This document shows, piece after piece, positions 21,690-25,683 of a stretch of DNA of 64,000 nucleotides. Under the pieces are notes generated by a model. It saw nothing but the letters and a program-made list of their open reading frames with translations. It was not told the DNA's origin and made no database searches. The stretch is from contig NZ_JAALCR010000006.1 of assembly GCF_011065895.1 (NCBI RefSeq), forward strand, positions 1-64,000. Reading direction: 5' to 3'. Both the position numbers and the translations under genes were made by a program. This DNA is from Paludisphaera rhizosphaerae (lineage in GTDB: Bacteria; Planctomycetota; Planctomycetia; Isosphaerales; Isosphaeraceae). Position 1 is the stretch's first letter. Every line of letters starts with the position of its first letter.

Positions 21690-23297
21690 TTACAGCCCCG
21701 CCCCCGGGCGGCCGGCGACCTCGCGGGTCTGGCCGCGTTCCTTGCGGGCGGCGATGGCGTTGACGGCGTTGACGTAGGCCAGGGCCGACGCCTCAATAAT
21801 GTCGGTGGAGGCCGCGCGGCCGCGGAAGCTGGTCTCGTCGCTCTCGACTTCCAACTCCAGAGTCACCTCGCCCTGGGCGTCCTTCCCCTGGCTGACGCTT
21901 CGGACGACGAACTCGTGCAGGTTGGCGTGGACGCCGGTGACGCGCTCGACGGCCTTGAAGATGGCGTCGACCGGGCCGTCGCCGATGGCCGCGTCCTGGA
22001 CGACCTCGCCGTCGGGACGGCGGATCGAGACGGTCGCCGTGGGCAGGACGCTGGTGCCGGCCGTGGTGTGCAGGCTCAGCAACTGCCAGGACGCCGGGAC
22101 GTCGCCCTCGCCCAGGTGCCGCTCGACCAGGACGGCCAGGTCCTCGTCGTAGACTTCCTTCTTCTTGTCAGCCAGCGCCTTGAAGTCTTTGAAGACGGCC
22201 TCGACCTGCTCGTCGTTGAGCGTGTAGCCCATCTCGACGATCCGGTCGCGCAGGGCGTGGCGGCCGGAGTGCTTGCCCAGGACCAGGTCGGTCTGGGGGA
22301 CGCCGACGTCCTCGGGCCGCATGATCTCGTAGGTCGACCGGTTCTTCAGCATCCCGTCCTGGTGGATGCCCGACTCGTGCGCGAACGCGTTGCGGCCGAC
22401 GATCGCCTTGTTGCGCTGGACCGTCAGGCCGGTGATCGAGGAGAGCATCCGGCTGACCGGGTACAACCGCTCGGTCTTGATGCCCGTGTCGACGCCGAAG
22501 TACTCGCGATGGGTCTTGATCGCCATCACCAGTTCTTCCAGCGCCGCGTTGCCGGCTCGTTCGCCGATGCCGTTGATGGTGCATTCCATCTGCCGGGCGC
22601 CGGCCGCGACCCCCGCCAGGGTGTTGGCGACGGCCAGGCCCAGGTCGTCGTGGCAGTGGGTGCTGATGACGGCCTTGCCGATGTTGGGGACGTTCTTGAC
22701 CAGGTCGGCGATCATCGCCCCGTACTGGGCGGGCATCAGGTAGCCGACGGTGTCCGGGATGTTCACGGTCGTCGCGCCGGCCTCGATGACGGCCTGGATC
22801 ACCTCGCGCAGGAATTCGGGCTCGGTGCGGCCGGCGTCCTCGGGGCTGAACTCGACGTCCTTGCAGAGCCCGACGGCGCGGCGGACCCCGGCGACGGCCC
22901 GCTCAACGACCTGCTCGCGGCTCATCCGCAGCTTGTGCTCGCGGTGGATCGGCGAGGTCGCCAGGAAGACGTGGATCCGAGGGCTCTGGGCGTACTGGAC
23001 GGCTTCCCAGGCGCGGTCGATGTCGCGGTCGTTGCAGCGGGCCAGGCCGCAGACGGTCGAGCCGGTGATCTCCGCGGCGATGGCGCGGACGGACTCGAAG
23101 TCGCCGACGGAGGCGATTGGGAACCCGGCCTCGATCACGTCCACCCCCAGGCCGGCGAGAGCCCGCGCGAACTCCAGCTTCTCGCCCAGGTTCATGCTCG
23201 CGCCCGGCGACTGCTCGCCGTCGCGGAGGGTCGTGTCGAAGATCCGAACGCGGTCGGCCGAGGTCTTCGAGGCGGTCGGGGACGAATCGGCGCTCAT
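21690..23297 (-). CDS. leuA: 2-isopropylmalate synthase
   Basis: The 535-residue product condenses acetyl-CoA with 2-oxoisovalerate, the first committed step of leucine synthesis. The catalytic N-terminal TIM barrel starts VRIFDTTLRDGEQSPGASM (residues 17-35) and includes STHCHDDLGLAVANT with the metal-binding His-x-His; the flexible subdomain and C-terminal LeuA allosteric domain (about 400-535, ending before PGAGL) are present, so leucine feedback is expected. ATG 23297 places the conserved core correctly; longer readings run into the leader region. Upstream is a leucine-rich leader ORF and an intrinsic terminator, a probable attenuator. No leuB/C/D genes are nearby. Confidence 0.96.
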   Translation of the reverse strand: MSADSSPTASKTSADRVRIFDTTLRDGEQSPGASMNLGEKLEFARALAGLGVDVIEAGFPIASVGDFESVRAIAAEITGSTVCGLARCNDRDIDRAWEAVQYAQSPRIHVFLATSPIHREHKLRMSREQVVERAVAGVRRAVGLCKDVEFSPEDAGRTEPEFLREVIQAVIEAGATTVNIPDTVGYLMPAQYGAMIADLVKNVPNIGKAVISTHCHDDLGLAVANTLAGVAAGARQMECTINGIGERAGNAALEELVMAIKTHREYFGVDTGIKTERLYPVSRMLSSITGLTVQRNKAIVGRNAFAHESGIHQDGMLKNRSTYEIMRPEDVGVPQTDLVLGKHSGRHALRDRIVEMGYTLNDEQVEAVFKDFKALADKKKEVYDEDLAVLVERHLGEGDVPASWQLLSLHTTAGTSVLPTATVSIRRPDGEVVQDAAIGDGPVDAIFKAVERVTGVHANLHEFVVRSVSQGKDAQGEVTLELEVESDETSFRGRAASTDIIEASALAYVNAVNAIAARKERGQTREVAGRPGAGL

Positions 23298-23461
23298 GGC
23301 TGGGCTCGTTCCTGAGGTTCGGGCTCGGGCGCTCCCGATTGGGGAGTCGCCGTCGCGCGGATTGGGGCGCTTTCGAGTGTACGACGCCGGGTGGCTGGGC
23401 CGCAAAGGCGAACGCGGAGGCGAGACGCCGGGCCGGGGGATCGTCGGGGCCGTCGACGAAA

Positions 23462-23515
23462 AAAAGCGAAGCCCCGAGACCCACCGTCTCGGGTGGGTCT
23501 CGGGGCTTCGCTTTT
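23462..23515 (-). terminator. leuA leader intrinsic terminator (attenuator)
   Basis: Perfect 24-bp stem: arms 23462-23485 and 23492-23515, loop of six bases (GTCTCG). On the minus strand the stem is followed directly by seven T residues (positions 23465 down to 23459), the signature of a strong rho-independent terminator. It lies 164 bases before the leuA start and 26 bases after the leader ORF stop, with no other minus-strand gene upstream to terminate. It is therefore best read as the attenuator of leuA. On the plus strand it has only four T residues after it. Confidence 0.85.
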
Positions 23516-23541
23516 CGTCTCTTATCGAGAAGCTCGCAGCC

Positions 23542-23613
23542 CTAAGACGATCCACCCTGACGGCCGATAAGGCCCAGGAGAAGGATGTCAAGGCTGGCAA
23601 GCGACAGGATCAT
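23542..23613 (-). CDS. Leucine-rich leader peptide of leuA
   Basis: A 23-codon frame opens with ATG 23613 and ends TAG. Leucine is encoded at codons 3, 5, 8, 11, 12, 13 and 15, with a run of three (CTT CTC CTG), and isoleucine at 2, 10 and 16, so ten of 23 residues are Leu or Ile. GGAG lies ten bases before the ATG. An in-frame ATG at 23637 would add eight residues. The minus-strand promoter lies just upstream and the terminator just downstream. Ribosome stalling at the Leu run under leucine shortage would be expected to prevent formation of the terminator, as in known leu attenuators. No frame of this size would normally be annotated. Confidence 0.75.
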   Translation of the reverse strand: MILSLASLDILLLGLIGRQGGSS

Positions 23614-23657
23614 TTGCAGGCGGCTCCGGCGATCCATCGACCTGATGGATCTACCGC

Positions 23658-23687
23658 ATCGTAGGCGAATCGACGGACGATGGTCAA
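23658..23687 (-). promoter_or_regulatory. Probable leuA promoter
   Basis: On the minus strand TTGACC (23682-23687) is separated by 18 bases from TACGAT (23658-23663). Transcription would begin near 23651, about 38 bases before the leader ATG. It agrees with a short attenuation leader. Confidence 0.65.
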
Positions 23688-23870: not shown

Positions 23871-24113
23871 ATGCCCCGTAAGAAGTTCGGACGCAACCGC
23901 AAGAATCGCTGCCGGTTCTGCACGAAAGAGGGCTGCCCCCGCCCGGCCTATGTCGACTACAAGGACATCGGCCTGCTGAAGAAGCTCTGCACCAACCAGA
24001 GCAAGATGTTCTCCCGCAAGCGGAGCGGCAACTGCGCCGCCTTCCAGCGGGCTTCGAGCGCCGCCGTCAAGCGGGCTCGCTTCATGGCTCTGCTGCCGTA
24101 CGTCGGCGAGTGA
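23871..24113 (+). CDS. rpsR: 30S ribosomal protein bS18
   Basis: The 80-residue protein shows the S18 core DYKDIGLLKKL and TGTCA-like SGNCAAFQRASSAAVKRAR, ending FMALLPYVGE. The N-terminus (CRFCTKEGCPRP) carries cysteines of a zinc-ribbon-like form seen in some bacterial S18 proteins. It binds the platform of the small subunit near S6 and 16S rRNA. A GAAGG site precedes the ATG. The usual neighbours rpsF, ssb and rplI are absent, so the gene stands alone here. Confidence 0.94.
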   Translation: MPRKKFGRNRKNRCRFCTKEGCPRPAYVDYKDIGLLKKLCTNQSKMFSRKRSGNCAAFQRASSAAVKRARFMALLPYVGE

Positions 24114-24165: not shown

Positions 24166-25683
24166 TCAACGCCTGGGCTCGGGGGCGTAAGACGCCTTGA
24201 GCCGGCGTTCGATCTCGCTCACAGGGATGCCGAGGCGGTCCTCCAGTGATCGCCCCGAGCCTCTCTTGATGCGCCCGCCGTAAGCGTCGTGGACGTAGTC
24301 CAGGAACGGCTCACGGTACGCGCCTCGGTCGGCCTGCATCAGGAAGACCGCCAGGGCCATCGCCTGCTGATAGTTGACGTAAATCCGCTCCGTGCGGTTG
24401 AAAGCGGCCTGATCCTGGCGAAGGAAGTCGCCCAGGGACAGGAACTTGCGCGCGTCGAGCGAGTTCACGGCTTCCTGGAGCCGAGGGCCGACCAGGCCGC
24501 CGACCTCGATCGCGCCGTCCTCGGTCGGTGTCGTGGTCTCGAAGTAGGTGCCGAGCCCTTCGAACACCCAGTAGTCGCCGGTGTTCGCCAGGTAGGCGTT
24601 GCGCCCGGCCGACTCGAACAGGAGCTGGTGCGAGACCTCGTGATAGAGCGTGGCCTCGACGGGAAGCTCGCCGCCGGCGTCTCGGAAGAAGTAGGCTGGG
24701 CGACGGTTCCCCTTGCCGCCGGGGCCTTTGGGGTCGTAATAGCCAAGGCTTTCTGCCCCGACCCGGTCGCCCGCCACGGGCCGCAGGCGCTCGTGGTATT
24801 CATTCCGGTCGGTGTAGAAGATCACCGTGTGGGGACGGTAGCTGTCGTCAGGTACAAGTTCCGGCGACTTGAAGCGCCTGGCCAATGGCAGTTCGTCGCC
24901 GATCACGTCGGCCATCAGGGTGAAGAAAAGGTCGTGGAAGGCCTCCAGCCGGCGGCCGAATTTGATTGCCTCGGCGAGGGGGACGTCGGCGCGGATTTCG
25001 AAGTGCTCGGTGTTGATCTGCCAGGGGTTGCGCCAGTTCGACCGCAGCCCGTCCGCCTGGGCGGCGGGGAGCCATGTCGTTGGGCGGCCTCGAACGGCCG
25101 GCGCGGGGAGTTCGCCCAGTTCCAGGTGGCGGATCCAGTCCTCGGGGACCCAGCCATAGGTCGGGTGCAACAGGTTCCCCGCCTTGAGCCTCTCGACGGC
25201 GAACGGTCGGGCCCAGCCGCCTTCATGCGGGACGTAGCCCAGCAGCCGACGGACTTCGGCGTCGTCCGGAATTCGGGCGACCGCTTCGCGAAGCGCGAAG
25301 GCCGCACGAGCCATGTGGGGCGGATCCGCGGCGGCCGCTTTCCGGGCCAGGTCGAGGAACGCCTCGCCAGCCGGCTTGCGGATCGCTTCGACGTCTTTTC
25401 CCCAGTCAGCGGGAGTGGTGGATCGGGGGGGCGTGACCTCCGGCAGGACGACCAGCCGGACGGGGCCGCCGTCGTCCGGAGCGGGGATCAGCTTGCGGAT
25501 TTCGGCTGCTCCACGGGCTTCGCCCTGCTTGGAGAGGCGATCGGCCAGGGAGCGGAGGGCCTCGGATTCGCGGTCGACGATCGCGCGAGCCTCGGCTTCG
25601 AGCGCCCGGGCGGAGTCCGTCCCCGACATGGGGGCGGGGACCTGAAACGCCAGGGCGGCCAGGGCGAGGAGCGTCGTGGTCAT
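24166..25683 (-). CDS. Secreted zincin-like metallopeptidase (DUF1570-type)
   Basis: The 505-residue product starts with a short hydrophobic signal (MTTTLLALAALAFQVPAPM). A helical region (about residues 25-200) precedes a domain with the zinc motif HEVSH at 348-352, in LYHEVSHQLLFESAG, followed by WVFEGLGTYFET with the likely downstream Glu. This matches the peptidase-MA-like/DUF1570 group, widespread in planctomycetes and uncharacterised. The end is rich in helices. Its start is 134 bases from the divergent gene at 25818. The substrate is unknown. Confidence 0.75.
   Translation of the reverse strand: MTTTLLALAALAFQVPAPMSGTDSARALEAEARAIVDRESEALRSLADRLSKQGEARGAAEIRKLIPAPDDGGPVRLVVLPEVTPPRSTTPADWGKDVEAIRKPAGEAFLDLARKAAAADPPHMARAAFALREAVARIPDDAEVRRLLGYVPHEGGWARPFAVERLKAGNLLHPTYGWVPEDWIRHLELGELPAPAVRGRPTTWLPAAQADGLRSNWRNPWQINTEHFEIRADVPLAEAIKFGRRLEAFHDLFFTLMADVIGDELPLARRFKSPELVPDDSYRPHTVIFYTDRNEYHERLRPVAGDRVGAESLGYYDPKGPGGKGNRRPAYFFRDAGGELPVEATLYHEVSHQLLFESAGRNAYLANTGDYWVFEGLGTYFETTTPTEDGAIEVGGLVGPRLQEAVNSLDARKFLSLGDFLRQDQAAFNRTERIYVNYQQAMALAVFLMQADRGAYREPFLDYVHDAYGGRIKRGSGRSLEDRLGIPVSEIERRLKASYAPEPRR

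Follow-up and report, generated by a model that had tools for sequence, protein, structure and literature searches.

Comparative analysis and modelling of a 64,000-nt stretch of the Paludisphaera rhizosphaerae genome (contig NZ_JAALCR010000006.1, positions 1 to 64,000; hereafter the window) indicate that leuA is very probably controlled by a ribosome-mediated transcription attenuator responding to charged leucyl-tRNA. The anatomy of the locus, its conservation, its covariation and the geometry of its alternative structures together comprise, in silico, an ORF rich in codons for the end product, a terminator ahead of the gene, an antiterminator that excludes the terminator, and a modelled ribosome that masks the antiterminator at the stop codon and frees it at Leu codons. 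These results support the original prediction, which had interpreted the locus as a leucine attenuator of leuA.

The regulated gene (Table 1) is identified by two equivalog models, NF002086 (789 bits, cut-off 532) and TIGR00973 (728 bits, cut-off 599), and starts at the ATG at 23297, approximately 165 nt downstream of the terminator hairpin. The divergent neighbour rpsR occupies 23871-24113 on the plus strand, and no same-strand gene lies between it and the leader. As predicted, the leader, hairpin and T run are located upstream of leuA and on its strand, and so is the promoter-like pair, the sole promoter-like site in 3.5 kb (0.2 expected). The proposed 23-codon frame is also present, encoding MILSLASLDILLLGLIGRQGGSS with seven Leu codons (four of them CTT, and one LLL run) and three Ile codons; its final Leu is codon 15, which is followed by eight Leu-free codons. 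An alternative in-frame ATG 24 nt upstream would extend the peptide to 31 aa; within the genus, however, it is the downstream ATG that is conserved.

Table 1. Coordinates of the leuA leader features in the window.
Feature	Position	Strand	Detail or evidence
Sigma-70-type promoter, TTGACC-18-TACGAT	23658..23687	-	TTGACC 23687-23682; TACGAT 23663-23658
Leader peptide ORF, MILSLASLDILLLGLIGRQGGSS, 23 codons, 7 Leu	23542..23613	-	ORF reading and relatives
Protecting (1:2-type) hairpin within the leader, around GGGCCTTATCGGCC	23561..23579	-	RNAalifold on family alignment, covariation
Antiterminator 5' strand GGGTGGATCGTCTTAGGGCTGCG: last leader codons, TAG stop, 7 nt beyond	23535..23557	-	Pairing, covariation, ribosome-position model
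CGAAGCCCCGAGACCCACC, common to antiterminator (3' strand) and terminator (5' arm)	23492..23510	-	Pairing and covariation
Intrinsic terminator: 24-bp stem, loop of 6, T7 (23465-23459)	23459..23515	-	Folding; covariation in family
leuA, 2-isopropylmalate synthase, 535 aa, regulated gene	21690..23297	-	NF002086, TIGR00973

The leader folds with a free energy of -109.5 kcal/mol, compared with -70 kcal/mol in shuffled sequences (z -8.2). Its hairpin had been described as a perfect 24-bp stem followed by seven T; the uninterrupted helix of 24-25 bp holds, but the stem ahead of the T run amounts to about 20 bp because some of T7 is taken up by the outermost A-U pairs. The hairpin is palindromic and could work on both strands. 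Its sequence is found a single time in the genome (8.05 Mb), where the only match to the covariance model of the leader (R1) is the leuA leader locus itself.

The pairing of GGGCTGCG with CGAAGCCC, put forward as the antiterminator, can form as described but makes up just the inner end of a more extensive structure, in which the terminator's entire 5' arm pairs with the last part of the leader, its UAG stop and the bases that follow. Both structures need this arm and are therefore mutually exclusive. The 5' strand of the antiterminator is nearly a copy of the 3' arm of the terminator, as fits two strands that compete for one partner. Pairing counted from the stop codon onward is already found in most genomes. 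An antiterminator starting at the stop codon, however, had weak support in single genomes, because the pairing begins about 15 nt further upstream, and it was replaced by the longer strand. With the latter, members of the family (Isosphaeraceae) average 16.9 antiterminator pairs where shuffles give 9.7 (p = 1.5e-11), and for other families the corresponding means are 10.6 and 4.6 (p = 3e-7). Taken individually, many genomes fall short of significance: p<=0.05 is reached in 16 of 36 from the family.

Covariation in the family alignment is found for the antiterminator (14 cells changed on both sides, 5 expected), the terminator (16, 1.8 expected) and the candidate 1:2 protector hairpin (12, 2.6 expected), the outer pairs of which extend to the stop-codon region. 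The antiterminator score is equalled by none of 500 shuffles, which ignore relatedness, and drops when the register is slid, a control that preserves relatedness; each of the three structures is best in its unslid register.

Folding with the ribosome at different positions was modelled for the window leader with an assumed footprint of 12-13 nt beyond the A site. With any of Leu codons 3-15 placed in the A site, 17-20 antiterminator pairs would remain free (-34 to -44 kcal/mol), and this number declines steadily to zero when the stop codon occupies the A site. The model thus reproduces the predicted masking of the antiterminator by a ribosome at the stop codon, and this effect appears fuller than had been proposed, since the antiterminator strand includes the stop codon itself. 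On thermodynamics alone the terminator is always favoured, so that the attenuation model needs co-transcriptional kinetics.

Transcription start, leader translation, ribosome pausing and the leucine response would then be connected as follows. Transcription probably starts near 23651, as judged from the promoter, and a ribosome would read the 23-codon leader while trailing the polymerase. When charged leucyl-tRNA is scarce, the ribosome would stall at a Leu codon, several of which are the rare CTT, leaving exposed the strand that runs from the last leader codons through the stop to 7 nt beyond it; this strand could pair with the emerging 5' arm of the terminator, block terminator formation and allow transcription of leuA. 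When leucine is ample, the ribosome would reach the UAG stop and mask the antiterminator strand, the terminator would form and transcription would stop at the T run.

The composition of the leaders is consistent with such a role. Leucine accounts for 30% of leader residues versus 6.7% in LeuA, and, in 11 genomes compared, the codons CTT and CTA make up 31 of 76 Leu codons in the leaders but 5 of 389 in leuA (p = 2e-22). Among family leaders, Leu frequency reaches up to 0.75 at upstream positions and falls to 0-0.03 in the last five codons, a Leu-free tail that would provide the spacing needed by a ribosome footprint. The Ile codons are not conserved, which points to leucine as the signal. TAG ends 32 of 36 leaders within the family and 22 of 30 outside it; this prevalence would be expected if the stop forms part of the antiterminator stem.

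Conservation of the Leu codons, frame and stem in relatives, named beforehand as a check of the prediction, holds in the family and across the class Planctomycetia. LeuA was searched in 45 Isosphaeraceae genomes, and the upstream DNA of 41 leuA loci was examined besides that of the window. Including the latter, 36 of 42 loci contain a Leu-rich ORF ending near a conserved terminator-type hairpin, and all 36 family genomes with the element have a TTGAC.-17/18-TAnn.T promoter 106-173 nt ahead of the leader stop. Differences within genera are more numerous at the third codon position of the leader (140) than at the first (81) or the second (60). T runs are short or interrupted in many family terminators, and two genomes (G024 and G025) have leaders in which Pro dilutes Leu and the stop is displaced. 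The six remaining loci comprise a weak case (G004), a second leuA cut by a contig end (G020) and those of four genomes of genus g18, which have leuA but no leader; leuA regulation in this genus must therefore differ. Many family leaders share a Leu-Arg-Leu motif, LRL(R), in which the Arg codon between the Leu codons is a nearly invariant, otherwise uncommon CGA; the genus of the window has Asp in place of this Arg (LDL/LDI).

Beyond the family, 40 genomes were sampled from 15 other families of Planctomycetia, and the leuA upstream region contains a terminator in 31 of them. A strict test, which asked for a Leu-rich ORF lying 5-60 nt upstream of a terminator, was passed by 28 genomes, and a slightly looser screen by 30, whereas neither the antisense strand (0/40) nor 10 shuffled sets yielded any; since the sampling aimed at breadth, these counts are not prevalences. 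Run for all 20 amino acids, the strict test returned 28 genomes for Leu, one for Cys and none for the others. Among 40 genomes sampled from the rest of the phylum, five pass the looser screen and several others have the ORF alone, while 8 of 74 leuA loci picked by similarity from many phyla pass, five of which are planctomycetes. One genome of another family (G254, family f63, L118) has two tandem units of Leu-rich ORF and terminator ahead of a single leuA, with leaders ending in SLKLLLLSPSCGRE and TLLLLALLLLGLP. A Gemmataceae record (L150, 1-665) has a Leu-rich ORF, MTAARLLPGLLLLGRQARGGPASRDG, a GC-rich hairpin and a weak T run ahead of leuA, which suggests a looser version of the leucine leader in that family.

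A related arrangement was found ahead of another biosynthetic gene. Weak R1 matches elsewhere in the family pointed to the DAHP-synthase gene (PRK08673), which is preceded by a Trp/Tyr/Phe-rich leader and then an intrinsic terminator in about 28 of the 30 Isosphaeraceae examined. The per-genome maximum of aromatic residues per 24 codons is 4-10, versus 1-4 on the antisense strand. In the window's own genome this leader, located within the minus-strand region 139993-144000 of contig C8, ends in TFGLFATYFTGSYLGWRYWFFTSAASGRRAVCGGCS. The element is a candidate attenuator that would respond to all three aromatic amino acids. The other family matches were rejected as additional leucine attenuators, those with clear gene context preceding DAHP synthase; one match (G009:C481) resembles neither the leucine nor the DAHP synthase leader.

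Three other explanations were considered, each less consistent with the results than leucine attenuation. The hairpin might instead serve constitutively to terminate other transcription, such as read-through or transcription antisense to rpsR, beside an ORF that is Leu-rich by chance. Its palindromic sequence could indeed serve both strands, and a same-strand gene ends at 24166; however, the Leu-rich ORF, terminator and promoter co-occur 5' of leuA in dozens of genomes, the antisense and shuffled controls yielded none, and the antiterminator covaries, which makes this explanation highly improbable. Nor is a peptide that stalls ribosomes in response to a signal other than leucyl-tRNA, be it an antibiotic or a general slowing of translation, at all probable. 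The frequency of LRL in the family, with its almost invariant CGA codon, would suit such a peptide, since an Arg-Leu-Arg motif occurs in antibiotic-sensing leader peptides (PMC8632094), but the motif is missing from the window's genus and from other families, while Leu richness is common to all and leuA is the regulated gene in every case.

Translational control, or Rho-dependent termination coupled to translation of the leader, with the hairpin secondary, is very unlikely. Such a route has been discussed for the actinobacterial LEU element of leuA, in which Leu codons turned out to be unimportant. It has a precedent in Streptomyces, where mutations of the Leu codons in a similar-looking leuA leader reportedly did not give the behaviour of a classical attenuator (PMC1262725), and it would accommodate the weak T runs of several family members. 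In contrast, the distance between hairpin and leuA start, the covariation of both terminator and antiterminator and the Leu-free tail, which fits ribosome masking of the antiterminator, argue for transcription attenuation by leucine.

Leucine attenuation of the leu operon in enterobacteria relies on a leader (leuL) with Leu codons, among which rare ones are favoured, and on alternative antiterminator and terminator structures. The planctomycete element resembles leuL in its short leader with rare Leu codons, its alternative structures and its control of the first leucine gene. It differs in that the antiterminator strand holds the UAG stop and the last codons, and in that no leuBCD lies directly downstream of leuA in the window. 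None of the Rfam 15 families matched the window or nine relatives at gathering score, and the weak matches include no leucine leader; the T-box covariance model likewise gave no match at gathering score or among matches with E<=5. Actinobacterial leuA leaders also have a Leu-rich ORF ahead of the gene, but the LEU element is a proposed pseudoknot with a base stem pairing Leu codons with the leuA Shine-Dalgarno box (PMC1262725), whereas the planctomycete element has a terminator hairpin between leader and gene and a covarying antiterminator, a contrast by architecture. The leuA, aroF and ilvBNC leaders of Corynebacterium (PMC4046766, PMC11857589) similarly place amino-acid leader peptides before leuA and the DAHP synthase gene, although in a different phylum and with Phe-Tyr-Phe where the planctomycete aroF leader mixes Trp, Tyr and Phe. 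A leucine-rich attenuator peptide of Staphylococcus aureus takes part in branched-chain amino-acid control but in another operon as well as another phylum (PMC5794164).

Open-access full text reports leader-peptide attenuation in Proteobacteria, Actinobacteria and Firmicutes; according to the 2010 paper describing a Firmicutes case (PMC2965389), none had been shown until then outside the first two phyla. A search of the same literature for Planctomycetes found no report, in agreement with the original prediction. The kind of control is thus known, while the member and the phylum appear to be new.

It is likely that Planctomycetia inherited a lineage-specific attenuator with the UAG stop in the antiterminator stem (GUCUUAGG paired with CCUGAGAC or similar), together with a wider use of attenuation that includes the Trp/Tyr/Phe leader of DAHP synthase. 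The finding would extend amino-acid leader-peptide attenuation to a phylum that, as far as open-access literature goes, had no described case, and conservation of the element throughout a whole class allows the mechanism to be read from covariation; a model of the planctomycete leucine leader could join Rfam. Separation of transcription and translation is debated in planctomycetes, and the cell organisation of Gemmataceae is disputed. The leader provides a simple reporter of how transcription and translation are coupled in these bacteria and, if the proposal is true, a lineage-specific attenuator would require this coupling to be close, possibly including in Gemmataceae.
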